Source: Selaginella tamariscina
Lineage: Eukaryota; Streptophyta; Lycopodiopsida; Selaginellales; Selaginellaceae
DNA length: 64,000 nt
Direction: 5' to 3'
NCBI GenBank assembly: GCA_003024785.1
Contig: PUQB01000097.1
Location: 193,804-257,803, forward strand
The translations under genes and the position numbers were made by a program. The notes beneath the pieces are model-generated. The model worked only from the letters and a program-made list of their open reading frames with translations. It made no database searches and was not told the DNA's origin. Every line of letters begins with the position of its first letter. Position 1 is the stretch's first letter. Below are positions 27,762 through 64,000 of this stretch, piece after piece.

Positions 27762-28373
27762 TGTCACGACCCGATACAGAATACAGGATTCCGGATACAG
27801 GACATGGGTTGCAGGACTTTCCTACAGGATTCCGGATACAGGATATGGGTTGCAGGATTTTTCTACAGGATACTCCTACCAGGATTCCAGACACAGGATT
27901 CGGTTGCAGGATATTCCTACAGGATATGCCTAGAGGATAAGGGACATGTGGACTCATCTTAGCCTCTGCATGCATGCAACCACTTTTGCATGCATGCCTA
28001 GATTAGCTCTTGGAGTTGTGAGCATAAAAGCTCCGACCTAATTGTTGTACAATCAGTTACTATCAACACCAGTCTTACTACGATCAATCTTGTCTTGTCT
28101 TGTTTCCTGTCCTGTTCCTGTCTCGCTCCTATTTCCTGTTCTGTTCCTGGATCCTGTCCTGCTCCGGGATCCTGTCCTGTTCCTGTTTTGCTCCCGGATC
28201 CTACCCTGTGCTTTCCTGTCTTGCTCCCGGATCCTATCCTAATCCTGTCCCACTCCTAGATCCGTCCTGTTCCTATTCCTGGTTCCTGTCCTGCTCTCGG
28301 TCCTGTTCCTGAGTCAAGCCTTCATGTCCTTGGAATCCTGCTCTCTTCCTGTTTCCTGGATCGTGGCTTGACA
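27762..28373 (+). repeat. Gypsy B 5' LTR with predicted self-priming start
   Basis: 612 bp. TATA-like 'cataaaag' at 28023-28030. About 30 bp downstream the predicted RNA start is CAGTTACTATCAA (28054-28066), whose exact complement lies two bases after the LTR (28376-28388). No tRNA-type PBS is present. Confidence 0.85.
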
Positions 28374-28471
28374 GTTTGATAGTAACTGCTTCATAGTTCT
28401 CCGTTTTCCAGCTACCTTTTTCTTGATTCCTTTCCTTCATTTTCCTCCTTTTTTTTTTTCTTTCCTAGATC

Positions 28472-29449
28472 ATGGCTGATTTTGAGCATTTTCAACACGA
28501 GCACCAAATGCTACTTCATGAGCTGGCCACTTTGCGCCAAGTGGTCACCGACCTGCAAGGTTCCACCACTGCGGCACATGCAGCTGCTAATGCATCCTCC
28601 AAGGCTGCTGCGCAGGCTCTCTCCCAGGCATCGGTGGTTTCCTCTTCATCAAACTTTTCTTCGGAGCCGAAGGTTAGCATGCCAGAGAAGTTCAGTGGTA
28701 ATCGTGCCGATTTCCAAGGTTTCCTGAATCAGATCCGACTCTTGATCCGTATGCAACCACGGCGCTACTCGACTGATGCTCAAAAGGTGGGTCTTTTGGC
28801 ATCCTTACTAAGTGGATCTCCACGGGCTTGGGTTGCCCCCTTGCTGGAGCGTGACGATCCACTGATGGAAGACTTTGAAGGTTTCGTGGCTGCCTTTGAA
28901 GCATGTTTTGGAGATCCTGATAAGTACCGTTCTGCATGCACGAAGTTACGGAAGCTCACTCAAGGATCCCGACCAGCTTCCGTCTATGCATCCGAATTTC
29001 AGCAACTTTGCACGAACATTCCATGGGACGAGACTGCATTGATCGAACACTTCCGTTTTGGGTTGAGGGATGACGTGAAGGACCTTCTCCTTACGTTACC
29101 GGATGCCCAAACATTAGCGGAGATCATGTAACAAGCTGTTCGTTGCGACAACCGTTTGTTCGAGCGTCGTCAGGAAAGATCCCGTCAACAGTTCCTGCAA
29201 ACCAATCCTACAGCTGTGGTACATGTTCCTGCACCACCTTCTGGAGTAGTTCCTATGGAGGTTGAGAAATCCAAGCGTGGCTCTCTTTCCGCTGCCGAGA
29301 AGCAACGTCGTCGCAATGAGAACCTGTGCTTGTATTGTGGTGGAGCAGGACACAAGGTGGCAGATTGTCCTATTAAAGCCAGGAACTTCAAGACGCGTGA
29401 AGTCGAAGCCGAAGTTCAGTCGGAAAACTCCAATGTCCACTTCGTCTAG
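28472..29449 (+). pseudogene. Gypsy B Gag with premature stop
   Basis: Starts MADFEHFQHEHQ. An Ala/Ser-rich N-terminus is followed by a capsid domain (GFLNQIRLLIRMQPRRYSTD, GSPRAWVAPLLERDDPLM) like that of sushi/Tf1-type Gags and a CCHC knuckle CLYCGGAGHKVADC. The only break is a C-to-T nonsense change at 29129 (LAEIM*). Confidence 0.9.
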
Positions 29450-32400
29450 GAGCCGCGAAGTTGGATGTAGGTGCAGGCTCCATTGGTGCTGCTCATACCA
29501 TCCCGTCACTTAAGTTTCCTGTACACATTCATCTTAATAATCGAGAGCTCATGGAGTTTGCCTTGTTAGACACTGGTGCAAATGCATGCTTCATGGATGA
29601 CACGTTTGCAACTCAACATGGCATTTCGGTGGTGAAGTTGAAGCGTGCAGTTCCTGTAGAGGTGGCCGATGGGCGTCTAATTGCTTCCGGTGCAGTTACC
29701 CATGCTACCGAACCTCTCTCCTGCAGGTATGGCACATTCAACTGTTCAATTTCCTTCAACTTGATCAAGACTCGGTCGACTCCCATCATTTTGGGCATGC
29801 CATGGTTCGTTGTTGCAAATCCACAAATTGACTGGAGGTCTAGGACACTCACGTTTTCCTCTCCAACTTCTAGGATCAATCCTGTACCTTCCTGTGTGCA
29901 GGATACATCCTTAGTATCTGAGGCAGTACAAGCTACAGGATTGACCGTACCTGTTCCTGTACCAGTGTTGAAGACTCCTCCTTGACAGGATTCACCTCAT
30001 GGCAGTTCCTCAGCACATCCGCAGGCTCTCCCCATTCCTGTAAGTTTGCGGTGTCCTGTACAGGGTTCTTCCAATCCTGTATCAGTGTCGAAGGTTCCTC
30101 CTCAACAGGATCCACCTCATGTTGATTCGTCAGCACATTCGCAGGCTTCTTCCACTCTTGCGCAACCACGGACTCCTGTACAGGATTCTTCCAATCCTGT
30201 GTACACTCACGGTGTCTTGTACAGGATTCTTCCAATCCTGTACACTCATCAACAACCACACATGTTTTTTCCAATCCTGCTTCTTTCTGTTACCCTGCCT
30301 CTGTTCCATCCCCCAAGATCCTTCCTCTTTTTCAGTCACAGCTCCCTCCTTCTCCTCTCCGAGTTCTTACCACTACCATGCATGAACTCGCCACTGATCC
30401 TGCCCCCTTCCACCTTTTTGCTTTTCAAGTAACTCCTACGTCCTCTCCTACCTTTCCTGTATCCGACTCCCCTGTTTTTTCTCCTTCTCCTTCTCCTTCT
30501 CCTCCTTCTTCCCTACCATCCAAGTACCACGACTTTAAGGACGTTTTTGACAAGCACAAGGCTGCAGTTCTTCTTGTTCACAGGTCCTACGACTGTCCTA
30601 TTGATCTTGCGGAAGGAAAGACTCCACCATTCGGACCGATCGGTATCCGTTGCCATTGATCCCGGAACTTCTCGATCGGCTGCGAGGGGCAAAGGTGTTC
30701 ACGAAGATCGACTTACGAGGAGCCTACAACCTTGTACGGATTCGTCCCGGCGATGAGTGGAAGACTGCCTTTCGTACAAGGTATGGACATTTGAGTACAC
30801 GGTAATGCCTTTCGGCCTTACCAATGCCCCAGCTGTATTCCAACACATGGTGAACGACATTTTCCGTGACTTCTTGGACCAGTTTGTGGTGATCTACCTC
30901 GACGACATCTTGATTTTCTCCAAGGACCAGGCGGCACATGACAAGCATGTACGACTAGTTTTAGAGCGGCTTCGCGAGCATGGCCTGTACGCGAAGTTGG
31001 AGAAGTGTTTTTTCGATAGGGATTCGGTGGAGTTCTTGGGCTACATCGTCTCTCCTGCTGGCGTTTCCATGGACATGCACAAGGTGAAGACCATCGTGGA
31101 GTGGGAGAGGCCCAAGTCGGTACGAGATGTACAATGTTTCCTTGGCTTTGCAAACTTCTACAGGCGGTTCATACAGGACTTCTCCAAGCGTGTACTTCCA
31201 CTCACAGAACTCACCAAGCGCACAGGACTTTTCTCTTGGTCCGACAAGGTGGAACACGCGTTCACAACACTCAAGGACGTTTTCACGACAGCTCCGATTT
31301 AGCACATCCTGACCCTTCTCATCCTTTCTTCATTGAAGCAGATGCCTCGGATTTTGCAGTAGGATCTGTCCTATCGCAAGTTGGAGAGGACAAGTTGCTT
31401 CATCCTGTAGCCTTTCACTCTCGTAAGTTCCTGTCGGCGGAGATCAACTACGAGATTCATGACAAGGAACTCAAGGCCATTGTGGATTCGTTTGAGGAAT
31501 GGCGGCATTTCCTGGAAGGTGCTGCCTGTACAAGTTCTTACGGATCACAAGAACCTGGAGTACTTTCAAACGGCTCGGGTCCTCAGCTGGCGACAGGCTA
31601 GGTGGGCAGAGTTCCTATCACGTTTTGACTTCGTCATCGTCTACAGGCCCGGCTTTCGGAATGGCAAGGCGGACGCATTGTCTAGGTGCTCTTACCTTGC
31701 ACCAAGCCCGGGCGATCCTGCATTTGACGGTCAAAGGCAAGTGTTGTTGGGTCCTGATCGTTTCCGGCTTGCGGCACTGCAGGTTCATCAGGCTCCAGCA
31801 AATTCAACACTCCTACAGGACGTTCGTTCGCAGTTGCCTACAGACGACTTGGGAAAGAATGTGTTCTCACACATTCATCCTGACGTTGCAAGTTCCTCTT
31901 CCTCCAGTTCCCGTCCAGACTACAACCTATTCACCATACAGGATGGACTCCTGTACCGGGAAGGTCTCCTGTACGTTCCTGTTGGTATTTCTAGGACTTG
32001 TGTGGTACAGGATTGTCATGATACCCCGGCTACAGGACATTTTGGTGTGGCCAAGACAGTGGAATTGGTGACTCGCAACTATTGGTGGCCTGGGTTGCGA
32101 GGTTTTGTGGAGAGGTTTGTACGGAGTTGTGACACTTGTAGCAGGTCGAAGATGCCTCATCATGCACCCTCTGGTCTTCTTCGTCCTCTTCCTGTTCCGT
32201 CTGCTCCTTGGAGATCCATTTCTATGGATTTCCTCACAGATCTTCCTCCTTTTCGTGGATTTGATGCAGTTCTTGTGGTGGTTGACCGTTTCACCAAGCA
32301 GGCTCATTTCCTACCCTGCAACAAGACAGCTACAGGTCAGACAACTGCCGAGTTGGTGATCCGCGAGGTGTTCCGACATCATGGTCTTCCTGAGAGCATT

Positions 32401-33297
32401 GTTTCCGATCGAGGTCCACAATTCATGTCCAAGTTTTGGCGAGAGCTTCTTCGGAGTCTACAGGTCAAAGCGGATCTTTCTTCAGGATATCACCCACAAA
32501 CCGATGGGCAGTCCGAACGCACAATTCAGACCTTAGAACAGTATCTTCGTTGCTTCATCAGTTACCAGCAGGACAACTGGTTGGACCTCCTTCCAATGGC
32601 AGAGTTTGCCTACAACAACTCCATCCACGCATCTACAGGACAGACACCTTTCTTTGCTCTTACAGGCCACCATCCACGTTTTGACTTTGCTCCTACCGCT
32701 TCTCCTTCTTCCGCTCCTGCAGTACAGGATCGTCTTCAGCATCTTCGGCAGGTACAGGATGATCTCCAGGTTCATCTTCAACAGGCACAGGAAAGATACA
32801 AGCATCATGCTGATGCTCACCGACAGCCGGCACCTGCATACAAGATTGGTGATCTCGTGTGGCTTCTTCGTCGACACATTCGCACCAACAGGCCTTCTTC
32901 TAAGTTGGATTTTCAACGATTGGGCCCTTATAGGATTGTGGCGGAGGTAAATCCTGTAGCTTTCCGACTCGAGTTACCATCCACGGTGAAACTTCATCCT
33001 GTGTTTCACACCTCTTTGTTGGAGCCGTATCATCCTTCTTCTCTTCCTGGTCGTGTTTCTTCTCCTCCCCCTCCTGTGGTCATTGACACGGAACCTGAGT
33101 ACGAAGTCGCAGCCATCCTTGACTCTCGTCTTCATCGTCACCAACTCCAATACTTGGTGGATTGGAAAGGGTACCTGCCTACTGATCGCACTTGGGAACC
33201 TGCATCCAACTTACTCCATGCTTCTTCCAAGGTTACTGCCTTCCATCGGCATTATCCTGCTAAACCAGGTCCCAAGACTCGTGGAACTCGTCTTTAG
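29450..33297 (+). pseudogene. Gypsy B pol (protease-RT-RNase H-integrase-chromodomain), broken
   Basis: Protease LLDTGANA; RT with YLDDILIFS; RNase [17 protein letters not shown]2C2 finger and integrase core (MDFLTDLP, VSDRGPQFMSKFWREL, HPQTDGQSERTIQTLEQYL); C-terminal chromodomain YEVAAILDSR...LQYLVDWKGY...DRTWEPASNL. The 612-codon 3' half (31459-33297) is open. A deletion at about 30640 removes the first RT motifs. Confidence 0.92.
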
Positions 33298-33307
33298 GGA
33301 GGAGGTG
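33294..33307 (+). other. Gypsy B polypurine tract
   Basis: 'agggaggaggtgc' directly before the 3' LTR. Also present in A (42670-42682) and, inverted, in C (36085-36098). Confidence 0.75.
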
Positions 33308-33958
33308 CTGTCACGACCCGATACAGAATACAGGATTCCGGATACAGGACATGGGTTGTAGGACTTTCCTACAGGATTCCGGATACAGGATATGGGTTGC
33401 AGGATTTTCCTACAGGATACTCCTACCAGGATTCCAGACACAGGATTCGGTTGCAGGATATTCCTATAGGATATGCCTAGAGGATAAGGGACATGTGGAC
33501 TCATCTTAGCCTCTGCATGCATGCAATCACTTTTGCATGCATGCAACCACTTTTGCATGCATGCCTAGATTAGCTCTTGGAGTTGTGAGCATAAAAGCTC
33601 CGACCTAATTGTTGTACAATCAGTTACTATCAACACCAGTCTTACTATGATCAATCTTGTCTTGTCTTGTTTCCTGTCCTGTTCCTGTCTCGCTCCTATT
33701 TCCTGTCTCGCTCCTATTTCCTGTCCTGTTCCTGGATCCTGTCCTGCTCCGGGATCCTGTCCTGTTCCTGTTTTGCTCCCGGATCCTACCCTGTGCTTTC
33801 CTGTCTTGCTCCCGGATCCTATCCTAATCCTGTCCTACTCCTAGATCCGTCCTGTTCCTATTCCTGGTTCCTGTCCTGCTCTCGGTCCTGTTCCTGAGTC
33901 AAGCCTTCATGTCCTTGGAATCCTGCTCTCTTCCTGTTTCCTGGATCGTGGCTTGACA
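33308..33958 (+). repeat. Gypsy B 3' LTR
   Basis: 651 bp. It is nearly identical to the 5' LTR, apart from an extra copy of a roughly 20-bp GCATGCATGC-containing unit (33514-33560) and a short duplication in U5. Confidence 0.92.
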
Positions 33959-35517
33959 GGTGAATGACATCTTTCGTGACTTCTTGAACCAATTTGTGGT
34001 GATCTATCTCGACGACATTTTGATTTTCTCCAAGGACCAGGCAGCACATGACAAGCATATACGACTAGTTCTAGAGGGGCTTCGCGAGCATGGCCTGTAC
34101 GCGAAGTTGGAGAAGTGTTTTTTCGATAGGGATTCGGTGGAGTTCTTGGGCTACATCGTCTCTCCTGCTGGCGTTTCCATGGACATGCACAAGGTAAAGA
34201 CCATTATGGAGTGGGAGAGGCCCAAGTCGGTACGAGATGTACAATGTTTCCTTGGCTTTGCAAACTTCTACATGCGGTTCATACAGGACTTCTCCAAGCG
34301 TGTACTTCCACTCATGGAACTCACCAAGCGCACAGGGCTTTTCTCTTGGTCCAACAAGGCGGAACACACATTCACAACACTCAAGGACGCCTTCACGACA
34401 GCTCCGATTTTAACACATCCTGACCCTTCTCATCCTTTCTTCATTGAATCAGATGCCTCAGACTTTGTAGTAGGATCCGTCCTATCACAAGTTGGAGAAG
34501 ACAAGTTGCTGCATCCTGTAGCTTTTCACTCTCGTAAGTTCCTGTCGGCGGAGATCAATTACGAGATTCATGACACGGAACTCAAGGCCATTGTGGATTC
34601 GTTCGAGGAGTGGCGGCATTTCCTGGAAGGTGCTGCACATCCTGTACAAGTTCTTACAAATCACAAGAACCTAGAGTACTTTCAAACGGCCCGAGTTCTC
34701 AGTCGGCGACAGGCTAGGTGGGCGGAGTTCCTATCACGTTTTGACTTCGTCATCGTCTACAGGCCCAGTTTTCGGAATGGCAAGGCGGACACATTGTTTA
34801 GGCGCTCTTACCTTGCACCAAGCCCGGGCGATCCTGCATTTGACTGTCAAAGGCAAGTGTTGTTGGGTCCTGATCGATTCCGGCTTGTGGCACTGCAGGT
34901 TCATCAGGCTCCAGCAAATTCAACACTCCTACAGGACGTCCGTTCACAGTTGGCTACAGATGACTTGGCAAAGAATGTGTTCTCACACGTTCATCCTGAC
35001 GTTGCAAGTTCCTCTTCCTCCAGTTCCCGTCCAAATTACAAGCTGTTCACCATACAGGATGGACTCCTGTACCGGGAAGGTCTCCTGTACGTTCCTGTTG
35101 GTATTTCTAGGACTTGTGTGGTACAGGATTGTCATGATACCCCGGCTACAGGACATTTTGGTGTGGCCAAGACAGTGGACTTGGTGACTCGCAACTATTG
35201 GTGGCCTGGGTTGCGAGGTTTTGTGGAGAGGTTTGTACGGAGTTGTGACACTTGCAACAAGTCAAAGATGTCTCATCATACACCCTCTAGTCTTCTCTGT
35301 CCTCTTCCTGTTCCTTCTGCTCCTTGGAGATCCATTTCTATGGATTTCCTCATAGATCTTCCCCCTTCTCGTGGATTTGATGCAATTCTTGTGGTGGTTG
35401 ATCGTTTCACTAAGCAGGCTCATTTCCTACCCTGCAAAAAGACAGTTACAGGTCAGACAACTGCGGAGTTGGTGATCCGTGAAGTGTGTTCCGACATCAT
35501 GGTCTTCCTAAGAGCAT
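33959..35517 (+). pseudogene. Gypsy A pol, middle part (RT to integrase)
   Basis: Resumes after the GGTGA duplication with the RT core (FVVIYLDDILIFSKDQ), RNase H and the first part of integrase, open for more than 500 codons. It is cut by element C at the codons for ESI (TSD AGCAT at 35513-35517). Confidence 0.9.
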
Positions 35518-36084
35518 TGTCAAGCCACGATCCAGGAAACAGGAAGAGAGCAGGATTCCAAGGACATGAAGGCTTGACTCAGGAGCAGGACCGAGAGCAG
35601 GACAGGAACCAGAATAGGAACAGGACGGATCTAGGAGTAGGACAGGATTAGGATAGGATCCGGGAGCAAGACAGGAAAGACAGGATAGGATCCGGGAGCA
35701 AAACAGGAACAGGACAGGAAACAAGACAAGACAAGATTGATCGTAGTAAGACTGGTGTTGATAGTAACTGATTGTACAACAATTAGGTCGGAGCTTTTAT
35801 GCTCACAACTCCAAGAGCTAATCTAGGCATGCATGCAAAAGTGGTTGCATGCATGCAAAAGTGATTGCATGCATGCAGAGGCTAAGATGAGTCCACATGT
35901 CCCTTATCCTCTAGGCATATCCTGGGTAGGAATATCCTGCAACCGAATCCTGTGTCCGGAATCCTGGTAGGAGTATCCTGTAGGAAAATCCTGCAACCCA
36001 TATCCTGTATCCGGAATCCTGTAGGAAAGTCCTGCAACCCATGTCCTGTATCCGGAATCCTGTATTCTGTATCGGGTCGTGACA
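35518..36084 (-). repeat. Gypsy C 3' LTR
   Basis: 567 bp. Differs from the 5' LTR by a handful of single-base gaps and one short indel near 35927. Confidence 0.9.
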
Positions 36085-36095
36085 GCACCTCCTCC

Positions 36096-39000
36096 CTAAA
36101 GACGAGTTCCACGAGTCTTGGGACCTGGTTTAGCAGGATAATGCCGATGGAAGGCAGCAACCTTGGAAGAAGCATGGAGTAAGTTGGATGCAGGTTCCCA
36201 AGTGCGATCAGTAGGCAGGTACCCTTTCCAATCCACCAAGTATTGGAGTTGGTGACGATGAAGACGAGAGTCAAGGATGGCTGCGACTTCGTACTCAGGT
36301 TCCGTGTCAATGACCACAGGAGGGGGAGGAGAAGAAACACGACCAGGAAGAGAAGAAGGATGATACGGCTCCAACAAAGAGGTGTGAAACACAGGATGAA
36401 GTTTCACCGTGGATGGTAACTCGAGTCGGAAAGCTACAGGATTTACCTCCGCCACGATCCTATAAGGGCCCAATCGTTGAAAATCCAACTTAGAAGAAGG
36501 CCTGTTGGTGCGAATGTGTCGACGAAGAAGCCACACGAGATCACCAATCTTGTATGCAGGTGCCGGCTGTCGGTGAGCATCAGCATGATGCTTGTATCGT
36601 TCCTGTGCCTGTTGAAGATGAACCTGGAGATCATCCTGTACCTGCCGAAGATGCTGAAGACGATCCTGTACTGCAGGAGCGGAAGAAGGAGAAGCGGTAG
36701 GAGCAAAGTCAAAACGTGGATGGTGGCCTGTAAGAGCAAAGAAAGGTGTCTGTCCTGTAGATGCGTGGATGGAGTTGTTGTAGGCAAACTCTGCCATTGG
36801 AAGGAGGTCCAACCAGTTGTCCTGCTGGTAACTGATGAAGCAACGAAGATACTGTTCTAAGGTCTGAATTGTGCGTTCGGACTGCCCATCGGTTTGTGGG
36901 TGATATCCTGAAGAAAGATCCGCTTTGACCTGTAGACTCCGAAGAAGCTCTCGCCAAAACTTGGACATGAATTGTGGACCTCGATCGGAAACAATGCTCT
37001 CAGGAAGACCATGATGTCGGAACACCTCGCGGATCACCAACTCGGCAGTTGTCTGACCTGTAGCTGTCTTGTTGCAGGGTAGGAAATGAGCCTGCTTGGT
37101 GAAACGGTCAACCACCACAAGAACTGCATCAAATCCACGAAGGAGGAAGATCTGTGAGGAAATCCATAGAAATGGATCTCCAAGGAGCAGACGGAACAGG
37201 AAGAGGACGAAGAAGACCAGAGGGTGCATGATGAGGCATCTTCGACCTGCTACAAGTGTCACAACTCCGTACAAACCTCTCCACAAAACCTCGCAACCCA
37301 GGCCACCAATAGTTGCGAGTCACCAATTCCACTGTCTTGGCCACACCAAAATGTCCTGTAGCCGGGGTATCATGACAATCCTGTACCACACGAGTCCTAG
37401 AAATACCAACAGGAACGTACAGGAGACCTTCCCGGTACAGGAGTCCATCCTGTATGGTGAATAGGTTGTAGTCTGGACGGGAACTGGAGGAAGAGGAACT
37501 TGCAACGTCAGGATGAATGTGTGAGAACACATTCTTTCCCAAGTCGTCTGTAGGCAACTGCGAACGAACGTCCTGTAGGAGTGTTGAATTTGCTGGAGCC
37601 TGATGAACCTGCAGTGCCGCAAGCCGGAAACGATCAGGACCCAACAACACTTGCCTTTGACCGTCAAATGCAGGATCGCCCGGGCTTGGTGCAAGGTAAG
37701 AGCGCCTAGACAATGCGTCCGCCTTGCCATTCCGAAAGCCGGGCCTGTAGACGATGACGAAGTCAAAACGTGATAGGAACTCTGCCCACCTAGCCTGTCG
37801 CCGACTGAGGACCCGAGCCGTTTGAAAGTACTCCAGGTTCTTGTGATCCGTAAGAACTTGTACAGGATGTGCAGCACCTTCCAGGAAATGCCGCCATTCC
37901 TCAAACGAATCCACAATGGCCTTGAGTTCCTTGTCATGAATCTCGTAGTTGATCTCCGCCGACAGGAACTTACGAGAGTGAAAGGCTACAGGATGAAGCA
38001 ACTTGTCCTCTCCAACTTGCGATAGGACGGATCCTACTGCAAAATCCGAGGCATCTGCTTCAATGAAGAAAGGATGAGAAGGGTCAGGATGTGCTAAAAT
38101 CGGAGCTGTCGTGAAAACGTCCTTGAGTGTTGTGAACGCGTGTTCCGCCTTGTCGGACCAAGAGAAAAGTCCTGTGCGCTTGGTGAGTTCTGTGAGTGGA
38201 AGTACACGCTTGGAGAAGTCCTGTATGAACCGCCTGTAGAAGTTTGCAAAGCCAAGGAAACATTGTACATCTCGTACCGACTTGGGCCTCTCCCACTCCA
38301 CGATGGTCTTCACCTTGTGCATGTCCATGGAAACGCCAGCAGGAGAGACGATGTAGCCCAAGAACTCCACCGAATCCCTATCGAAAAAACACTTCTCCAA
38401 CTTCGCGTACAGGCCATGCTCGCGAAGCCGCTCTAAAACTAGTCGTACATGCTTGTCATGTGCCGCCTGGTCCTTGGAGAAAATCAAGATGTCGTCGAGG
38501 TAGATCACCACAAACTGGTCCAAGAAGTCACGGAAAATGTCGTTCACCATGTGTTGGAATACAGCTGGGGCATTGGTAAGGCCGAAAGGCATTACCGTGT
38601 ACTCAAAATGTCCATACCTTGTACGAAAGGCAGTCTTCCACTCATCGCCGGGACGAATCCGTACAAGGTTGTAGGCTCCTCGTAAGTCGATCTTCGTGAA
38701 CACCTTTGCCCCTCGCAGCCGATCGAGAAGTTCCGGGATCAATGGCAACGGATACCGATTCCGAATGGTGACTTGATTCAAACCCCTGTAGTCCACCACC
38801 AAACGTAAACTCCCATCCTTCTTCTTGACAAAGAAGATAGGAGCTCCTGCAGGGGACTTTGAGTGACGAATGAAGCCGGATCCTAAGTTGTCCTCGATGT
38901 ATTGACGAAGAACCTCCAACTCTGTGGGTGACAATGCATAGATCGGTCCGAATGGTGGAGTCTTTCCTTCCGCAAGATCAATAGGACAGTCGTAGGACCT

Positions 39001-40155
39001 GTGAACAGGAAGAACTGCAGCCTTGTGCTTGTCAAAAACGTCCTTAAAGTCGTGGTACTTGGATGGTAGGGAAGAAGGAGGAGAAGGAGAAGGAGAAGGA
39101 GAAAAAACAGGGGAGTCGGATACAGGAAAGGTAGGAGAGGACGTAGGAGTTACTTGAAAAGCAAAAAGGTGGAAGGGGGCAGGATCAGTGGCGAGTTCAT
39201 GCATGGTAGTGGTAAGAACTCGGAGAGGAGAAGGAGGGAGCTGTGACTGAAAAAGAGGAAGGATCTTGGGGGATGGAACAGAGGCAGGGTAACAGAAAGA
39301 AGCAGGATTGGAAAAAACCTGTGTGGTTGTTGATGAGTGTACAGGATTGGAAGAATCCTGTACAGGACACCGTGAGTGTACAGGATTGGAAGAATCCTGT
39401 ACAGGAGTCCGTGGTTGCGCAAGAGTGGAAGAAGCCTGCGAATGTGCTGACGAATCAACAGGAGGTGGATCCTGTTGAGGAGGAACCTTCGACACTGATA
39501 CAGGATTGGAAGAACCCTGTACAGGACACCGCAAACTTACAGGAATGGGGAGAGCCTGCGGATGTGCTGAGGAACTGCCATGAGGTGAATCCTGTCGAGG
39601 AGGAGTCTTCAACACTGGTACAGGAACAGGTACGGTCAATCCTGTAGCTTGTACTGCCTCAGATACTAAGGATGTATCCTGCACGCAGGAAGGTACAGGA
39701 TTGATCCTAGAAGTTGGAGAGGAAAACGTGAGTGTCCTAGACCTCCAGTCGATCTGCGGATTTGCAACAACGAACCATGGCATGCCCAAAATGATGGGAG
39801 TCGACCGAGTCTTGATCAAGTTGAAGGAAATTGAACAGTTGAATGTGCCATACCTGCAGGAGAGAGGTTCGGTAGCATGGGTAACTGCACCGGAAGCAAT
39901 TAGACGCCCATCGGCCACCTCTACAGGAACTGCACGCTTCAACTTCACCACCGAAATGCCATGTTGAGTTGCAAACGTGTCATCCATGAAGCATGCATTT
40001 GCACCAGTGTCTAACAAGGCAAACTCCATGAGCTCTCGATTATTAAGATGAATGTGTACAGGAAACTTAAGTGACGGGATGGTATGAGCAGCACCAATGG
40101 AGCCTGCACCTACGTCCAACTTCGCGGCTCCTAGACGAAGTGGACATTGGAGTTT
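36096..40155 (-). CDS. Gypsy C Pol polyprotein with chromodomain, one frame break
   Basis: Protease (LLDTGANACFMDD), a Pro/Ser-rich spacer, RT (FGLTNAPAVFQHMVNDIF, YLDDILIFSKDQ), RNase H ([13 protein letters not shown]), HHCC finger (HDTPATGHF...CDTCSRSK), integrase DDE core and chromodomain (YEVAAILDSR, YLVDWKGY, WEPASNLL), ending KPGPKTRGTRL. The 996-codon upstream frame and the downstream frame meet at about 37130-37140, where one base is missing in integrase (SMDFLTDLPPS). Otherwise this is the most complete copy. RT and RNase H motifs resemble the Tf1/sushi/fungal chromovirus branch rather than the usual plant CRM/Tekay types (inference from motif reading). Confidence 0.9.
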
Positions 40156-41108
40156 TCCGACTGAACTTCGGCTTCGACTTCACGCGTCTTGAAGTTCCTG
40201 GCTTTAATAGGACAATCTGCCACCTTGTGTCCTGCTCCACCACAATACAAGCACAGGTTCTCACTGCGACGACGTTGCTTCTCGGCAGCGGAAAGAGAGC
40301 CACGCTTGGATTTCTCAACCTCCATAGGAACTACTCCAGAAGGTGGTGCAGGAACATGTACCACAGCTGTAGGATTGGTTTGCAGGAACTGTTGACGGGA
40401 TCTTTCCTGACGACGCTCGAACAAACGGTTGTCGCAACGAACAGCTTGTTGCATGATCTCCGCTAATGTTTGGGCATCCGGTAACGTAAGGAGAAGGTCC
40501 TTCACGTCGTCCCTCAACCCAAAACGGAAGTGTTCGATCAATGCAGTCTCGTCCCATGGAATGTTCGTGCAAAGTTGCTGAAATTCGGATGCATAGACGG
40601 AAGCTGGTCGGGATCCTTGAGTGAGCTTCCGTAACTTCGTGCATGCAGAACGGTACTTATCAGGATCTCCAAAACAGGCTTCAAAGGCAGCCACGAAACC
40701 TTCAAAGTCTTCCATCAGTGGATCGTCACGCTCCAGCAAGGGGGCAACCCAAGCCCGTGGAGATCCACTTAGTAAGGATGCCAAAAGACCCACCTTTTGA
40801 GCATCAGTCGAGTAGCGCCGTGGTTGCATACGGATCAAGAGTCGGATCTGATTCAGGAAACCTTGGAAATCGGCACGATTACCACTGAACTTCTCTGGCA
40901 TGCTAACCTTCGGCTCCGAAGAAAAGTTTGATGAAGAGGAAACCACCGATGCCTGGGAGAGAGCCTGCGCAGCAGCCTTGGAGGATGCATCAGCAGCTGC
41001 ATGTGCCGCAGTGGTGGAACCTTGCAGGTCGGTGACCACTTGGCGCAAAGTGGCCAGCTCATGAAGTAGCATTTGGTGCTCGTGTTGAAAATGCTCAAAA
41101 TCAGCCAT
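40131..41108 (-). CDS. Gypsy C Gag (325 aa, intact)
   Basis: Structural protein of the retrotransposon particle. Order: coiled N-terminus (MADFEHFQHEHQMLLHELAT), Ala/Ser linker, capsid-like domain (residues about 75-215), basic region and one CCHC knuckle CLYCGGAGHKVADC (about 290-303), ending SENSNVHFV and TAG. The pol frame is -1 relative to Gag and already open before the Gag stop, so pol is probably made by -1 frameshifting. A conserved 'cggaaaac' lies just upstream of the stop. Confidence 0.9.
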   Translation of the reverse strand: MADFEHFQHEHQMLLHELATLRQVVTDLQGSTTAAHAAADASSKAAAQALSQASVVSSSSNFSSEPKVSMPEKFSGNRADFQGFLNQIRLLIRMQPRRYSTDAQKVGLLASLLSGSPRAWVAPLLERDDPLMEDFEGFVAAFEACFGDPDKYRSACTKLRKLTQGSRPASVYASEFQQLCTNIPWDETALIEHFRFGLRDDVKDLLLTLPDAQTLAEIMQQAVRCDNRLFERRQERSRQQFLQTNPTAVVHVPAPPSGVVPMEVEKSKRGSLSAAEKQRRRSENLCLYCGGAGHKVADCPIKARNFKTREVEAEVQSENSNVHFV

Positions 41109-41211
41109 GATCTAGGAAAGAAAAAAAGGAGGAAAATGAAGGAAAGGAATCAAGAAAAGGTAGCTGGAAAACGGAGAACTATGAAGCAGTTACTATCAAA
41201 CTGTCAAGCCA

Positions 41212-55535: not shown

Positions 55536-55544
55536 AAGAGAAGT

Positions 55545-55680
55545 GAGTCCCGACAAAAAGAGGGCTTCCGGGCTTCCGGGCTTCCGGGCTTGGACCCGGA
55601 ATATTCTAAAGAATCTACCAGAATATTCTTAGAATATTCCTAAATATTCTTAGAATTTAGGATTTTGGCTCAGTCGGCAA
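55545..55680 (+). repeat. Left terminal and subterminal repeats
   Basis: Terminal inverted repeat, then three tandem 'gggcttcc' units, four GAATATTC-type palindromes (55599-55655) and one AGTCGGCA (55672-55679). Confidence 0.75.
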
Positions 55681-55767
55681 TTAACAACAAAATATTTAAT
55701 CATAGCCATGTTTATACTGTATTATTAAAGTTTTATTTCAACACCAAAGAGTACAATTCAACACTTG

Positions 55768-58700
55768 TCACTTCTTCTTACGATTGAGCAATGCTGCAAT
55801 TCGTGAACCACCAGTCCTACTTGACGTCGCTATTGCTTGGGTTGGGATTTCCTCTGGCTGGATGTTCTCTTTAATCCTGTTCATAGCAATTCTCCGAGCT
55901 CAGGGTTCTTCTCAGAGTCCAACAATGTTTCTCCCCACGCGATAGCTGCAAGCATTGAGGACCCGTACCACTGCCTATATCCCAGATAAGATCACCTGGC
56001 CGGGTGAGTCGTTCTATCACGAGCTGCATCAATCGAGTGCTCTTCGGTTGGTAGTCCATCCTGCATGTGAAGATAATGGTAAATACTTAATTGTTGAAAT
56101 GAAATGCCTACCATGTTCTTGGAACCGCTCAGGATTATCAACAAGAATTGTTGATGACAAACGCAGTGGATTATCGCGCAATCCTCTAGATGCATCTTGG
56201 AAGACAAGAAGGAGCAGGATGCTCTCCTGTTAAAACATCAAAATCATTAATGAACTTCATGAATAAAGAAAAAAGTACCTTCATCTTGTTGCGGTAGCCC
56301 CAACCACGCCCTCTGTAGATGTAGTACGTTGCAGCAAGTTGAAGGTCCACCACACTTGCAGCTCGGACAACTTGATCCCAGGTGTTTGCTGCAGCAAACA
56401 CAACCAACCAACCATTTGCAGCCATATGCATACCTGCAAACTGGAGTGCTTCATCGAACTTCACTGGATCAAGGTAGAGGTATGGCGTATCACTCGTTGT
56501 ATTTCCTGGCAAGGTCCCATTTGGAAGGTCGAAGATCACCAAGTTGAAACCATATTCTCCCGCAATATGCTGGTAGCGAGTCTGGCTGTCAGCTGTATGG
56601 TACCTGGCCACCTGTGTCTGAACTTTTCTATAAGGAACCAGTCTAGCGTCAGGAACCTCCTCTTCCTTCTCATCCGTGAGCACGGCCTGTTGCATCTCCT
56701 CGATGTCATCAATCGCCAAGAAATTATCACCTCGAGTTGTAGCAAGTGAAGGGACGAATGTGACCAAGTCATCCTTGATGTCCATGGTTCCCTGCGATGG
56801 TAGCACTTCAGATAAATTGAAGAAGGCAGCTGGATCGCGAGTAGTGGAGGTGCCAGCTACTGTATCTGAGGTCTTCTTTGACTGCTGCACAGGCTGACGC
56901 CGCTTTGCCTTGGCCTTTGTCTTCTTAATGAAGTCGACCTCTGCCGGATCCCATGAGATGCATGGGAGATCTTTTGAGTGTTCATTGTAGAGATCCTTCT
57001 CCCATGTTGGTGGTTGCCCAGGTGGATAATCAAGCCAGAACGGTACGTGTACACGCTCGAACTCTGTCAGGCCAGATCTTGTCTTCGACCACATGTGTGG
57101 TGCTTCCATGTAATCTGACCAGAATACCATAGTCTGTGTGTGAGGCACCTTTCTCGCTGCGACATACCTGTAATGAACATATAGTAGTGTCAGAATGTAA
57201 CAATGTCAAGAAGATCATCCTTACCTCCAAATCATCCTTCTTGCTGTCTCTTCGTGTTCGAGGAACTCTTTCGGCTCTATGGAGTAAGTGAACTTCACAC
57301 ACTCATGGAATGGCTGGAACATCACGTTCTTGCATTTTACCCGCACTTCATCGCACCAAGTCGTGAAATCTGTAACCGGCCTGCTCCACTCGCCATCCTC
57401 GATGAGTCCCGTGAGAATCTGTACTGCCTCCTCTCTGATTGCCGCCAATACAAATCGATAGTAAACCACCTTATCCACTCCTTATCCTGAACACCCGGCA
57501 ATCCAAGTGTCTCTTGCTCTCTCTTCAGATCGAGACGTACCAGTTTATTGAAGTACATGATTCTCGTCTCGTTTGGAATTCTCGCCCTTGAAAGCGCGTA
57601 CAGCTTTTCCAACCCCATCCATCTGCATTGTTTCCATGTGATTTGGGTCACCTTGTCGAACCACTCTTCACCCAATGCAGGATCGATGATGGCTAAGATC
57701 TTCATCATGCGCTTGTCATGCTTAATGTAGACCTGTTGTTGCTCCTGGTATTTGTTGCCTTTGGATGCCCTTGCAGCCTTCTCAAGATCATCCTCAATCT
57801 CACTCTGTAATTCACAGACGTAATCAACTAAGATATAAGTGTGAGACATGGTACCTCAAAAAAGATCTTTGCACAGATCAAATTCGGAAGTGGATGCCAA
57901 GCTTGTTGTCCAGTCGCGCTTTCCTTCCACTTTCTTATGTCATCTCGTTCCTTGTCACTGAGCCTGGCCAAGATCTTCGCTGTGCCCTCCTCACTGGTGC
58001 AACATGTCTTCACAGATAGCAGAAGATGTGGCAGTGTGGTTTGCACTGCCGTTGCGGAGGAACTGCATATTTGAAAAGCTCGAAGTTAGTTAATCCTATG
58101 ATCTAGAGGTCACTGTTTACCTATTAATTTGCTGAAACATTGTCACAAGCTGAAGATTATCCATGACCCCAGCACGGATGAAGCCTGAACGCACTCTCAC
58201 TGCCCACTGATCTTATCTTCCGTGTCTTCTGTGTACAGCTTCTGAAGCACCTTTAGCCTGTGATTACCATCCCAACAGATGAACTTCTTCATCGAAAGCA
58301 TTGGTGCCCATTGCCGGAACATGTCGGACTGAAGCTCCTCCTCAAAAGCCAAATGCTGAGCATACATCGCTTCATCGCTTCTCAATGCTGCCAGATCTGC
58401 ATCTGTCATGGGGTCCCCAACTTGAAGGATGAACTGAGTGGTGTTGCGCAAATAACCAACTGCCTTCTTGAAACTCCTAGTCAAAGATTCCAGATCCGCT
58501 GGATTGACTCTCCGCACCTGCTCATTTCCCAGAATTCGGCAAATAGGGACATCCGGTGCCTCTCCATATTCTCGGATTGTGATCTTCGCGAGAAGACGCA
58601 CTGCACTCTCCGAATGCATGCTGGCTGCAATGTTGTAAACTTCCTCATTATCTGGCACTTCTGCTTTACCCTTCTTCTTCTTCTTAGCAGCCTCTGAATC

Positions 58701-59076
58701 TCCAGCAGCTTTGCGTCGTCTCTTCTTGCTCTTGGGTTCATCCTCTTCGTCACTCGACAAAGTCACTGCGCATGAGGCTTGTGTGCCTTCTGTCTGCTCC
58801 TGTGTCTCCTGTGGTAAGACATCATCCTCAACTTCTTCAACAAAGTCTGATTGTTTGTTGGGGTTGAACTACATCCTCTTGCTCTCCTGACCAGTCCTGC
58901 TGGCTTGCCTGTTCAACTGGAGCATCACTTGAAGGTCCTTGTTCCTGAACCACAGCCAGCTTCCTACTTCCTCTCCCACGACCCCGACGCCCTCTCTGAA
59001 TTGCAGCTCTAGCTTCTGCTTCTCTCTCAGTAGGCTCCTTCATCTTCTTTTCTTGTAAACGTTGTGAAGAGCGCAT
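55768..59076 (-). CDS. ParB-like domain plus DNA methyltransferase domain protein of the transposon
   Basis: Six exons on the minus strand: 59076-58121, 58062-57855, 57804-57225, 57167-56279, 56226-56112 and 56060-55768. From ATG 59076: a basic Arg/Gly and Lys-rich N-terminus (RRGRGRGSRK, KSKKRRRK, KKKKKGK); a ParB/sulfiredoxin-like domain ending FICWDGNHRLKVLQKLY (58295-58245); a helical middle region with no known match; then a methyltransferase in the circularly permuted beta-class order: putative motif IV LVIFDLPNG (about 56535), GGW-type strand NGWLVVFAA, later the motif X/I region TRPGDLIWDIGSGTG (about 55990). The catalytic DPPY is replaced by DLPN, so activity is uncertain. Apparent single-base losses occur at about 58850, 58205, 57480, 55975 and 55885, and the 5/6 exon phase does not fit. 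It ends LLNRKKK. N6-adenine or N4-cytosine DNA methylation is the family expectation, not proven here. Confidence 0.7.
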
Positions 59077-59161
59077 CTACAAAAGCAATAAGGTTTAACA
59101 AAAAACTGTAATAAATGTTCAAAGATGTTTAATAAAAATTAAAAAAACATACTAGCCCTCA

Positions 59162-59569
59162 CAGTCGGCGTGCCGACTGAGAGAGCAGTTGCTGTAAGTC
59201 CCAGTCGGCATGCCGACTGGGCCTGGCATCAAAGGGAGTCCCAGTCGGCATGCCGACTGGGACTGGCATCAAAGGGAGTCCCAGTCGGCATGCCGACTGG
59301 GCCTGGCACAAAGGGAGTCCCAGTCGGCATGCCGACTGGGCTGGCAACAAAGGGAGGCCCAGTCGGCATGCCGACTGGGACTGGGAACGAACAAGGCCCA
59401 GTCAAAATGCTAGGTGGGACTAGAACAGTCAACCCTAGTCAAAATGCTGACTGGGGCTGGAACAGTCAACCCCGGTCAAAATGTTGACTGGATCTGGAAC
59501 AGTCCACCCCAGTCGGCCTGCCGACTGGGACGGACAACGAAGTCAGTCCGAGTCGGCAGGCCGACTCGG
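59162..59569. repeat. Array of palindromes between the divergent transposon genes
   Basis: A 22-bp perfect palindrome with core CAGTCGGCATGCCGACTG repeats at 59200, 59240, 59280, 59319 and 59358, i.e. every 39-40 bp with a conserved spacer ('ggcatcaaagggagt'). An imperfect copy stands at 59162 (one centre change). Three decayed copies in which GGC became AAA lie at about 59398, 59434 and 59472, and two variants with altered centres at 59508 and 59548. The half-site AGTCGGCA also occurs near both ends of the transposon. It sits 90-490 bp upstream of the methyltransferase-gene start and about 500 bp upstream of the transposase start, the place for a shared operator or binding platform. Confidence 0.95.
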
Positions 59570-60062
59570 ATTTCTTGCAACTGTGAAGAGATGTAAAAAG
59601 ATGAACAGATCATGAAAAGATCATGAGCAGATCATGAAGAAATCAGAAAATACTCACCCCCTCAATGGAAGCCTATTGTGATTAATCCCTGGAGCCACAC
59701 TTGCTCCACGCTATGCCCCCAAATGCGCCGCTGCTCCACGAAAACCTAGCCGCCCTCGCTGCCCTAGCCGCCCTAATTGCAAAACCCTAGCCGCCCTAAA
59801 TCAATTAAAAACCAACCTAATTTCTGTAAACATATTGCATGCATGATCGCCACTTGTACATAGTAAAACTTTTTAATTTACAAAAAACCTACCCAGACGC
59901 AGTAAATTAATTTCACTCTTCTACCCAGACGCACGCAATTAATATTATTTTTAATATTTGTCAATGAAATGATTGCCTCACGACTAACAAACACATTAAC
60001 CATCGTGTGTAATATGTTCATTGTCTTTGAATTTTAACTTTTGTTTGTTCCATTTTTGCTAC
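59570..60062 (+). promoter_or_regulatory. Upstream region of the transposase gene
   Basis: Contains tandem 'gatcatga' units at 59608-59640, a stretch rich in 'gccgccct' (59748-59800) and AT-rich DNA up to the ATG. The open frame extends upstream of 60063 only through a TTG codon. Confidence 0.4.
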
Positions 60063-63000
60063 ATGGCAAGAATCAGCTACAATGGTGTTGACAAGGACTT
60101 CCCTGCAGATGAAGATGGTATTGCATTTGTCTTTGAAACAGATCTCAGGTCTGCATTTGACATTCCACCTTGGCAATCTTTTAAAGTGCTGCATTTGATG
60201 TCTGTTGTTGGTGGAGATGCTGCGAATGTTGAGGTAGAACCAGAAGGGGCAAGAGCTAGCAGTTTTGTGTATTACACACTTCTTCCTTCCAAAGGACCGC
60301 TATTCCGGTTGGAGACAACAGATCGGGACAATTCTATGGTAACAATACTTCGCAATAGTCAGAGATGTAGGATTGGGAAGCAACTGGTGGTCTCGTCATC
60401 GATTCAGCAAGTTGCTGAGGTCCCAGAAGATTGCAACGGAAATGTGATTTACGAGTTGCCAGCACACGAAACAATGAAGGACAAGTACAAAGGGATGAAT
60501 AGGAAGGATGGGTGTGATTACTGGACTCAACGCTGCACAACACATTGGAATGTTCCAGCTCGTGTTAGTCGCAGTTCATGTATTGGCCACATGAAATGCG
60601 TAAAGGAAACATGTCCGTTCATCAGCTTCAGTAAGAAAGCAAATGACTGCCAATTTAAGGGCACCATTGATAAAGTCCAGTTATCTTCAGATGGTAGAGT
60701 GCTTGGAATGAAGTGTGTGCATTGCAACAATGAGCCCCTTCTAGTGCAGACATGCTCCGTTGTTGCATATTACATAATTCCAGATGATATCACATGCACG
60801 AGGCTTTTCATCCATCTTGGAGAACATCAACACCCACGTAGACCACCCGAATCCATGGTCTCTAAAGACAGAGCTAAGGAGACAATCAACAAAGCAGTCG
60901 CTGCAACCCCAAGAACTAATCAACGTGTCATAGAGTTTCAAGCAGCACGCAATATAATTTTGGAAAAACTGGTAACAGATTCTGGAGATGTATCATACGA
61001 CAAGGTTCTGTCAGATCTACTACCACTCACAAATCACCGCCGGTAAGCAAAAAAATTATTATTTCCTTTTGGAGATGCTTAACCTTTCCATGTAGAACAA
61101 GAGAATGGATATCTCAGGCTAGAACAACAGACACTCGTTTCAAAGAAGGTTACGAAGGACTTCTGCAGTTAAAGAAGAAGCTATCAATCCCATTCATACA
61201 TGTTATCCACATACCCGGAATGGACCTCAACGGAGCTGAAGAGCAGCCTTTAATCTTCAAAATGACGGTTGCCGGCCCAGGATCCGGAATAGACTACATT
61301 AGAAGGTGTCAATCTGGAGGTGATCTCGAACAGCAGTGGGTGGTGCTAGACCACACATATCGTATTGATGATTGGTGTACACTGGGAATACATCTCTATG
61401 ATCCATTGTAAGTATTAACATATCTATGTTTTAAAATACTTACTAATATAATGCACTTATGTTTGTGTAGTTTAAGGTCGATGGTGACACTTGCTTATGG
61501 TGACATGATCAGGGAGGATAGTGTGGCGGTGATCAAATTTTTGAACACTATGCTTCAAGTGTGCAGCAAGCAAGGACTTCATAATGTGAACTTTGCGGGG
61601 TTCATGTCAGATGAGTCAGGTGCAATTTGGTTAGCATTGCGTCAAGTTTTCAACAATGGGTCAAAGATGAGAGGAAGAGAAAGGAGTTGTTTGTTCCATT
61701 ACATGCAGTCAGTGCGTCAAGTTACAAAGAAGTGGATACTTGAGGAACACAGGGAGGAGCACATGAACCTTGCACGCTCATGGCCTGCAGCACTAACCAA
61801 CCAAGATAAGTTGGAACGACGAGTAATGTTGGAGTCATTTTGGGAAGGCAGGTCCAGTAACGTTAGCGCTTTGCAAACATGGCTGTCATGGTGGGCAAGA
61901 CATGAAGATCATATTTCCATGACAGAGATAATTGACTTGACAGAAGATGGTGTTGCGAATGTGCCTACCACTAACAACTCCGAAGTTGTTCATGCAAGAG
62001 CACGAAGAGCAAGGCTGACGAAGCGTGTTCCTTTGTTGGAGGCAACAATGTTAGATTTAACAGATGCTGTTTTCCAAAGTGCAAAGGTCAAGGCATCATT
62101 TGAAGGGAGATATTCAGGCACAGGTCCTTCCATGGAAACTCTTCTGAAACGTGCACAGCAGAAACTTTCAGCGGGAAAATCAGTGTCTCCAACAACTTTT
62201 GCAAATCTTGTTAGTGATGAAGAGCATCTTGCAAGTCCAGAGTTTGCCTCTACAACAAATGTTCGTGTTCGAACCGTTCGTCAACCGTCAACTGGGGACC
62301 ATGGGATTGATGCACTTCGTACACATAGACATGACACACAATATGCAGAACAAGTCATCCCAAATGCACGCAGGAAAAAACTCAAGTTTCAAGATGTCAA
62401 TGTCACTGAAAGAGAGACGTTGATGACTCAGTGGGCCATCAGACGCATTGGGGAGGCAAGTCAGGTGAAATGTCTAGGTCTCACTCAGGACGGTAACAGC
62501 AAGTGTGGCAGACCCATAGGATATCCACATCGTGTACCGGCACCAGGATTTCACGGTAGACGGCAATATACAAATGCATTTGGGAACATTGAGTTCACTC
62601 ATCAGATGCTATGGTTCTGCCCACGCGATTCTTGTTGCTTCAGACGACCATATGCAGGGATTCCTCCTGAGAGTATTCCAGAAGTTCCAGAGGTTTGGCC
62701 AGTTCAAAAAGGAACAAACTTGAATGCAAATGAGGTTGAAGCTCTTCTGAAAGCAGGATTCAAGTTGGAGGGATTTGAAGAAATGGTAGACGACAGTAGT
62801 AGCCGAATGGATCGAACACCATCACCACCAAGAGGAGAGGGAGCACATAGAGTACCAACATACCATGGACGGAGTGTGCGAACACCAACAAGAATGTCCA
62901 AGGAACATGAGAAACATTACAACCAGGCAAAGATTCTTCAAGGTCGGATCAACAACGTGGAGGTGGTTCAAAGAGGGAAGACTGAGGCCTTCATTGTCTC

Positions 63001-63235
63001 TGCAGGCATGCAATCTGCTAAGGTAACAATTTCTGCTGTTCCGTCATGCACTTGTGCAACTTTTCAGAAAGCCAAGAACTGGAGCCCCTGCCAACACATG
63101 TATTTTGTGTACACTCATGTTCTTGGATTAGACCCAACGATTACTTACTTCTTACAGAGGCGGACCCTTACTCCAGCAGAAGTGCATCGGTTATTGGTTG
63201 GTTGCAAGCGCAATGTCGAACCTGCGACTTTTTAA
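60063..63235 (+). CDS. MULE-like DDE transposase with SWIM zinc finger (1018 aa, intact)
   Basis: Three exons in phase: 60063-61042, 61096-61407 and 61471-63235. Residues about 150-258 form a Cys/His-rich WRKY-GCM1-like DNA-binding region (CIGHMKCVKETCPF ... MKCVHCN ... HLGEHQHP). The RNase-H-fold catalytic core follows MULE order: D412 in VVLDHTYR, then LAYGDMIREDSVAVIKFLN, D478 in FMSDESGAIWLA, CLFHYMQSV, and E602 in NNSEVVHARARRARLTKRVP. The C-terminus has a SWIM finger C957-T-C959...C971-Q-H973. Start chosen as the first ATG (MARISYNGVDKDFP). There are no stops or shifts in 3 kb, so the transposase may be active or recently active. Confidence 0.85.
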
Positions 63236-63433
63236 GTTTAGTCGGTATAGTAAAGTCTAGTCGGCAAATAATTAGCGTTTTTCACTTGTTGGTCGGCATT
63301 TTATAATGAAAGTTAAAGATAATCTACTTGGCAGAATATTCTAGAATATTCCCTTTTATTTGACAGAATATTCCTGGATATTCGGGAATATGCGAAAAGC
63401 CCGTTGTACGAAGCCCGGTTTTTGCCAATCCTC
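63236..63433 (-). repeat. Right terminal and subterminal repeats
   Basis: AGTCGGTA (63240), AGTCGGCA (63259) and GGTCGGCA (63291), then GAATATTC palindromes at about 63334-63378 and the right inverted repeat ending at 63433. It begins only a few bases after the transposase stop. Confidence 0.75.
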
Positions 63434-64000
63434 AAGAGAAGTTGGTTTTAGCTTTCACAAACGATAATTTAATTCGAAAAAGAAAGTCAAACTAGACTCA
63501 AAAAGATATTTTTTACTTAATTCAATTAAAGAGGTAGAATATTTTAAAGGAGCCAGAGATCATTGTTTGAAAATGGTTTTGACTAAAGAGAAATGGCTAA
63601 CAATGTTAGTGGGAATGGATACCCATTATGTAATTGTATATTTATTAAATTAAGTTAAGTGTGAATGTGATCTTTTTAAAAAATTTCTAATTAAATTTGT
63701 TAGTATATTTCCATTAAATTATTTTATTAGGCTAATTAGGTTAATTAAAATAAAATAATTTGATTGAGAGTAGAAATCAGCCCATAGTATTATATTATGG
63801 CAGTGAAAACTTATGTGTTAAATCAATAATAAAAATTATTTAAGAATTTAGTGTAAACAAAGTTCTAAGTACTCGTAAGCCAAGTGGAAAAGTTTAAATG
63901 AAAATGGAAAAAGTGATATTGTTTTTTAATTGAATTAAAAATTAAAAATTAAAATAAATATTAAGAAGATTCATGAAATATTCATGGATATGCTTTATTT
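63434..64000. other. AT-rich flank to window end
   Basis: Starts with the right 9-bp target duplication (63434-63442). No gene seen. Confidence 0.5.

Follow-up and report, generated by a model that had tools for sequence, protein, structure and literature searches.

The closest systems described so far come from algae. In the sections of PMC12477816 that deal with the Ectocarpus transposon Sola1-1_Ec32, a 21.5-kb element, a 1,104-aa (amino acids) ParB-like/DNA-methyltransferase gene is reported opposite the transposase gene, and green and red algal relatives are cited (Iyer 2011; Petroll 2025). We analyzed a 64,000-bp stretch of DNA from the lycophyte Selaginella tamariscina (contig PUQB01000097.1; hereafter the window) and found in it a DNA transposon of 7,889 bp (window 55545–63433) carrying two divergent multi-exon genes, one for a MULE-like transposase and one, on the opposite strand, for an accessory protein with a putative ParB-like segment and an amino-methyltransferase domain, which is the layout of Sola1-1_Ec32. 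This kind of element is already known from algal transposons; what is new is the land-plant variant. Sola1-1_Ec32 is a brown algal element of 21.5 kb with a Sola1 transposase, whereas the elements found here belong to a land plant, are MULE-like, measure 7.9–8.3 kb and are flanked by 9-bp duplications. Their DLPN motif IV and shared CAGTCGGCA array (see below) are features of the Selaginella element, and the likeness to the algal proteins is one of layout and description only. A preliminary description of the locus had assigned ParB-methyltransferase fusions to bacteria and phages, which is too strong given the Ectocarpus case as reported in PMC12477816. Its statement that no plant MULE with such cargo had been described stands as far as the open-licence literature was searched: neither for land plants nor for MULEs was a description of this cargo found there.

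SET is a histone-methyltransferase domain. It is listed for one oomycete group in a table of PMC6446971, the main text of which does not contain the word methyltransferase. From the MULE/MuDR features given in that text, the Selaginella element shares the 9-bp duplications, a candidate SWIM-like C-terminus of the transposase and an antisense second open reading frame (ORF), the last reported for several plant groups; unlike those elements, it gave no match to the MULE Pfam domain. A further known system is the VANC protein. According to the parts of PMC5735166 concerned with its targets, its binding motif is nine bases long and lies in tandem repeats of noncoding DNA, some of them in introns of the VANC gene itself, and its action leads to a loss of host methylation.

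The gene pair is mobile as one unit

The element was bounded by an exact 9-bp target-site duplication and by imperfect terminal inverted repeats (TIRs) with the common pattern GAG...CAAAAA...GGGCTTC, and both genes had open consensus frames across their introns (Table 1). The unit of two divergent multi-exon genes that the preliminary description had proposed was thereby confirmed. Copies were searched for in the host's own assembly (300.7 Mb, 1,391 contigs) with 1 kb from the middle of the element as query. Close copies were abundant, with at least 183 matches from the best 40 of 230 candidates, which were scored. A sample of 20 fetched copies and the window, hereafter subfamily A, was studied further, and both ends were readable in 18 of the 21. 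Single-stretch alignment over at least element positions 35–7886 was obtained for 15 of the 20 fetched copies (97.8–99.4% identity), the remaining five (L011, L013, L024, L027, and L028) being split, deleted, or cut by the end of the fetched stretch or contig. A perfect duplication (9/9), within the 8–11 bp of the MULE superfamily, was found in 12 of the 18 copies with both ends; imperfect or shorter duplications were found at L009 (8/9) and L024 (8/8), and no clear duplication at L018, L019, L021, and L026. Ten of the 12 copies with perfect duplications aligned as whole elements (from position 34 or lower to 7886 or higher), one was the window itself, and L028 was without part of the transposase. 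These results show that the gene pair is mobile as one unit.

That the locus is a single degenerate copy was rejected, given the many close copies and the perfect duplications on 12 of 18. Not all copies are independent insertions, since L011 and L012 had a flank in common and L016 and L021 a right flank. The left flanks of L016 and L021 differed, a pattern that suggests that copies have recombined or that sequences were joined in the assembly. Compared to the consensus, each copy showed 7–38 substitutions per 7.9 kb and insertions/deletions in about equal number; the family is therefore young, and the assembly looks noisy.

A second subfamily, B, was recognized among the matches of a genome profile search with PF01555, which gave 739 candidates, the best 150 of which were scored and were all above the family cut-off. 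Six B loci were read and two of them (C50 and C14) extended, and the divergent gene pair was present in both extended loci. Matched stretches of A and B were 44–70% identical for the accessory protein and 51–76% for the transposase. C50 was a complete B element of 8,289 bp with a perfect 9-bp duplication (ATCCCAGTG) on both sides; no target duplication was found for C14, and in B locus L032 both genes were rearranged onto one strand. A divergent methyltransferase match lay within 9 kb at no fewer than 29 of the 45 scored transposase places. This is a minimum, since scoring covered 150 of the 739 methyltransferase candidates and since the 16 other places include C1083, whose fetched copy L025 aligned along the full length of the element. 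Other copies did hold both genes within one duplication, and profile searches did give a methyltransferase match, the two points on which the preliminary description had staked its proposal.

The transposase coding sequence of the window was identical to the 18-copy consensus and open, as the preliminary description had read it. As read, the transposase frame was fully open in three of the 18 copies (the window, L020, and L026), and L026 was the one fetched copy with both genes fully open. The transposase is MULE-like only, a wording that rests on the 9-bp duplications and on the order D (LDHTYRI), D (FMSDESG), CxxH (CLFH), E (TNNSEVVH), residues picked by eye on what we take to be the MULE pattern. 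The MULE domain PF10551 gave no match to the A transposase up to E 1, and none up to E 10 to a core stretch of the A transposase, to exon 3 of B or to the protein P0003. The C-terminal SWIM-like CxC...CxH motif scored 14.5–15.9 bits, below the cut-off of 19.6. The earlier label of a MULE with a SWIM finger thus keeps the support of the duplications but lacks that of the two profiles. P0003 (644 aa, on a 4,971-base contig) was 32% identical to the transposase over about 490 aa and was the only relative outside the host genome found among 5.8 billion proteins.

Selection was examined as pN/pS (nonsynonymous, N, to synonymous, S, polymorphism), counting each distinct variant once and leaving out gapped codons; some variants are possibly sequencing errors. 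For the accessory gene, pN/pS was 0.34 both in the 18 A copies (22 N, 18 S, no stop; five multi-base codons set aside) and in the six B sequences (48 N, 40 S, one stop; four multi-base codons set aside; 959 of 1,015 codons), compared to 0.55 for the A transposase (29 N, 15 S, four stops; four multi-base codons set aside). Purifying selection on accessory-gene substitutions was thus shown in both subfamilies. MULEs are known carriers of gene fragments, and the accessory frame was broken in most copies as read; both would suit a Pack-MULE-style capture, in which a host or bacterial gene was taken up once and is carried passively. We disfavour this explanation as very improbable, given the same arrangement and purifying selection in two diverged subfamilies and the similar gene pairs reported for algal Sola1 transposons in the sections cited above (PMC12477816).

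The accessory gene of the window itself contained several 1–2-base insertions/deletions compared to the 18-copy consensus. Most of the insertions/deletions are probably long-read assembly noise, since they are short and scattered while the substitutions keep the frame. Short ones broke the single-copy frames of A copies and of B loci L029–L034, while the A consensus was open. In automatic annotation of this assembly the accessory gene is likely to be overlooked.

The accessory protein and its methyltransferase domain

The C-terminus of the accessory protein was identified as N6_N4_Mtase (Pfam PF01555, E 7.1e-9, 36.4 bits against a cut-off of 26.7) and matched phrog_67 (2.5e-11). Membership of the permuted (beta) class, claimed earlier from the letters of the window, was borne out by the profile match and by the motif order IV...I. 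In hhalign, the joint profile of A and B matched five phage ParB-methyltransferases in 191 columns with a probability of 95.7% (E 9e-9), against 0.2% for reversed phage sequences, and in a search of solved structures the ten listed matches were all methyltransferases (best E 0.0015). Like the phage fusions L043, L045, L047, L048, and L049, the accessory protein has a ParB-like segment followed by a permuted N6_N4 methyltransferase, and the methyltransferases are homologous by profile. The phage fusions differ in being 404–510 aa long, in having DPPY or SPPY as motif IV, and in being without a transposase and without the middle region of 460 aa. No relative of the accessory protein was found among the 5.8 billion proteins searched, and no homologue in the bacterial and archaeal genomes scanned, or in the viral contigs scanned with a single sequence; the scan of viral contigs with the A+B alignment gave one 63-residue match (L056, 35%).

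The catalytic motif IV of such enzymes is (D/N/S)PP(Y/F/W). Neither subfamily has this pattern: motif IV is DLPNG in A and DLPNE in B, compared to DPPY in the aligned phage relatives and SPPY in L043. Catalysis is uncertain because both subfamilies have DLPN instead of DPPY. The preliminary description had spoken of a DNA-modifying enzyme; with this motif IV such an activity is putative. The domain may instead be catalytically dead and the protein a SAM-binding (S-adenosylmethionine) or structural DNA-binding regulator, an unlikely alternative that still carries substantial weight. The altered residues stand exactly at the DPPY position of the phages (SPPY in L043), and in B the methyltransferase domain had the highest pN/pS of five parts (0.48; 13 N, 8 S). 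Set against this, the SAM motif is retained (PGDLIWDIGSGTG...GRNIVGTEK), motif IV still has its D and its second P, and the domain is among the best-conserved parts between A and B, at 60% identity compared to 56% for the middle, 51% for the ParB-like segment and 35% for the N-terminus.

ParB/Srx domains are defined by a DGxxR-type motif after an N-terminal segment. Such a motif is present, as DGNHRL(K/Q)xLQKL in A and B, and aligned with DGHLRLKAARKL of phage L045. An hhalign comparison with five phage ParB domains was located at the DGNHR motif with a probability of 0.8%, hmmsearch ParB scores were 0.5 and 1.4 bits, and excising the insert gave no improvement in the ParB comparison (2 of 200 shuffles equally good). 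L045, a genuine fusion, is itself below the Pfam ParB cut-off; ParB_N was found in it below cut-off, and in the accessory protein not at all. The ParB-like domain of the preliminary description thus keeps its DGNHR motif and motif order, which weakly suggest the label, but finds no profile support. Nuclease and NTPase activities of ParB domains are described in the portion of PMC5512222 that treats these domains, among them the nicking activity of a ParB domain joined to an adenine methylase.

Conserved half-sites and a candidate self-directed regulator

Five perfect palindromes of at least 22 bp were found at 59200–59379 between the two genes, with weaker units on to 59583, and the half-site recurred at the element ends (55673, 63260, and 63292), as the preliminary description had noted. 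The top noncoding 8-mer shared by A and B was CAGTCGGC, with 15 occurrences in A (1,409 bases) and 11 in B copy C14 (1,395 bases) and none in A and B coding DNA; AGTCGGCA occurred once in window 1–55400. In 200 dinucleotide shuffles of both A and B no 8-mer exceeded four in both, and with real A and shuffled B (500 shuffles) the maximum was three; palindromes arising by chance were rejected on these maxima. The intergenic DNA of A gave no blastn match to C50 and C14 (E 1e-3, words of 7). Within the A array, divergent neighbours of the form GCCGAC...GTCGGC had starts 31–32 bp apart in six of seven cases (142 in the seventh), and in B they were 32–33 bp apart in two of three cases in C14 and five of six in C50 (13 in the odd ones). 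Sites with CAGTCGGCA were present at both ends in both subfamilies. The noncoding DNA of A and B, otherwise unalignable, thus keeps CAGTCGGCA at the ends and inverted-pair arrays, which is new here.

Perfect core palindromes (AGTCGGCATGCCGACT) numbered 4–9 per copy across the 18 A copies, and target repeats of VANC likewise differ in number between copies, as stated in the sections on targets cited above (PMC5735166). Also in common with the Arabidopsis VANDAL MULEs, as presented there, are an accessory gene beside the transposase and a short motif that is overrepresented in noncoding DNA and in tandem repeats (PMC5735166). The motifs of VANC21 and VANC6 differ, whereas the motif found here is kept across two subfamilies, and the likeness to VANC is one of cis-motif pattern only. 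To our knowledge, VANC is without a methyltransferase domain.

The best explanation, a tentative one with a chance just short of even, is that the accessory protein may be a self-directed regulator that acts on CAGTCGGCA sites and keeps the MULE-like element open against silencing, in the manner of VANC. An element-encoded regulator of this type is proposed because the end and leader sites are conserved, the inverted geometry is kept, the repeat number varies and the accessory sequence is constrained. The transposase would move the two-gene element, and the second gene would supply a self-directed protein in which a segment possibly of ParB/Srx type and a large middle are combined with a permuted amino-methyltransferase of bacterial type. 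This protein, probably as a dimer, would recognize inverted CAGTCGGCA pairs spaced by some three helical turns within the leader as well as single CAGTCGGCA sites at both ends. Once bound, it would keep transcription and/or transposition possible against host silencing by cytosine methylation, as VANC does for VANDAL. Its methyltransferase domain might deposit a local mark of the 4mC/6mA type (N4-methylcytosine/N6-methyladenine) or, given DLPN, might serve as a SAM-binding module without ordinary amino-methylation.

Host silencing by 5mC (5-methylcytosine) is made plausible by the graded C>T changes in the copies. Outside the array these were more frequent per site in CG (43/438, 0.098) than in CHG (30/634, 0.047), and least frequent in CHH (47/2260, 0.021). 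CpG density in the array was not unusual.

A rather unlikely alternative is that the CAGTCGGCA sites are transposase sites or ordinary shared promoter elements and that the methyltransferase-like gene acts elsewhere, on host targets or transposition intermediates. Sites at both ends and between the genes are what transposase or promoter sites could produce. The ends, however, carry a separate shared repeat that is a better candidate for the transposase site: motifs of the AATATTCT type were confined to them (left/middle/right 5/0/4 in A and 4/0/4 in B), and transposition would not need an inverted-pair array in the middle.

Upstream of the accessory ATG, the A array has candidate splice signals on either side, judging from which it is probably transcribed as part of the 5' leader of the accessory gene. 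In B, repeats of about 137 bp (L035 4226–4501; L033 1–600, C50 intergenic) each resemble a mini-exon (TTTCAG ... GTATTT), and the B leader may consist of exon-intron units in tandem. With the array in a transcribed leader, a role in RNA is conceivable: hairpins in the 5' leader of the spliced accessory mRNA could control translation, splicing or small-RNA production. The splice signals, the mini-exon-like repeats and the capacity of the inverted pairs to form stems in both subfamilies would fit such a role, which we nevertheless hold to be improbable, since half-sites also occur at both ends, beyond the coding genes, and no Rfam family reached its gathering score.

Several observations weigh against a self-directed regulator. 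Transposase or host factors could bind the CAGTCGGCA sites in place of the accessory protein. The accessory frame was fully open in one of the 18 A copies as read (L026), insertions/deletions breaking it in the other 17, and the consensus of the six B sequences retained frame breaks; if these insertions/deletions are real, most copies make no accessory protein. Motif IV is without its aromatic residue and first proline. Searches for ParB in Pfam and NCBIfam gave no match up to E 10, hhalign against 14 phage ParB domains gave a probability of 3.4% that 2 of 200 column shuffles equalled, with a best stretch that did not include DGNHR, and AlphaFold models of the ParB-like segment were poor (mean pLDDT, the predicted local distance difference test, 47 and 43). 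Besides, C>T changes at CG and CHG within the array numbered three compared to about 8.7 expected, a weak deficit that could equally come from concerted repeat evolution.

Genomic setting and significance

Table 1. Coordinates of the transposon features in the window
Feature	Position	Strand	Description
Left target-site duplication	55536-55544	.	AAGAGAAGT; same 9 bp at 63434-63442
Left terminus	55545-55767	.	Imperfect TIR, GGGCTTCC tandem, AGAATATTC sub-terminal repeats, one CAGTCGGCA site at 55671-55679
Accessory gene	55768-59076	-	6 exons, 1,015 aa in 18-copy consensus across GT-AG introns
Accessory exons	59076-58121, 58062-57855, 57804-57225, 57167-56279, 56226-56112, 56060-55768	-	Limits by eye
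Accessory protein parts			Charged N-terminus; ParB-like with DGNHR, aa 146-319; middle region, aa 320-779; permuted amino-methyltransferase, aa 780-986
Motif IV position	56516-56530	-	DLPNG; hhalign column match and A/B alignment, coordinates from window sequence
Half-site array	59163-59583	.	CAGTCGGCA half-sites, occurring head to head as palindromes CCCAGTCGGCATGCCGACTGGG and as divergent pairs at a distance of 31-32 bp
Transposase gene	60063-63235	+	3 exons (60063-61042, 61096-61407, 61471-63235), 1,018 aa in consensus
Right terminus	63236-63433	.	AGTCGGCA site (63259), GGTCGGCA (63291), AGAATATTC repeats, TIR
Right target-site duplication	63434-63442	.	AAGAGAAGT; pairs with left copy

Elsewhere in the window, a 33-bp tandem repeat (5.2 copies, 10613–10782) of GAATATTC-like sequence resembled the end repeats of the element and is possibly the remnant of a related one. 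Two or three Ty3-type long terminal repeat (LTR) retroelements in both orientations occupied 27146–41111; one Ty3-type ORF there had reverse transcriptase, RNase H and integrase zinc domains by Pfam and a chromodomain-like end by eye. PPR-repeat genes were found at 142–2377 and 5656–6732, and an XRN gene and a cupin (germin-type by eye) were also present. Together with the Ty3-type retroelements, these genes point to a land plant. No tRNA was found in the 64-kb window.

Self-marking by bacterial-type methyltransferases has been proposed for algal transposons, and for Sola1-1_Ec32 the pages on that element make the same proposal of self-binding and self-marking (PMC12477816); no test of the proposal was found in the literature consulted. 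The land-plant case is represented by two subfamilies and by numerous close copies of young age, and its candidate recognition site is explicit and has a fixed geometry. With many copies and such a site, binding and marking become directly testable, partly from native long-read signal. The same signal at the ends and between the genes suggests an element-specific system by which the transposon marks, regulates or protects itself. In its strongest form, which we regard as distinctly unlikely, a vascular-plant transposon would write its own non-5mC mark at its leader and ends, aimed by CAGTCGGCA and made by the chemistry of a variant motif IV, and would so escape or time silencing; self-modification would then be a general strategy of transposons in algae and land plants alike. 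An active enzyme would make the element a rare source of 4mC/6mA-type marks in a vascular plant, and a dead one would mean that a methyltransferase fold has been taken over for element-specific regulation.

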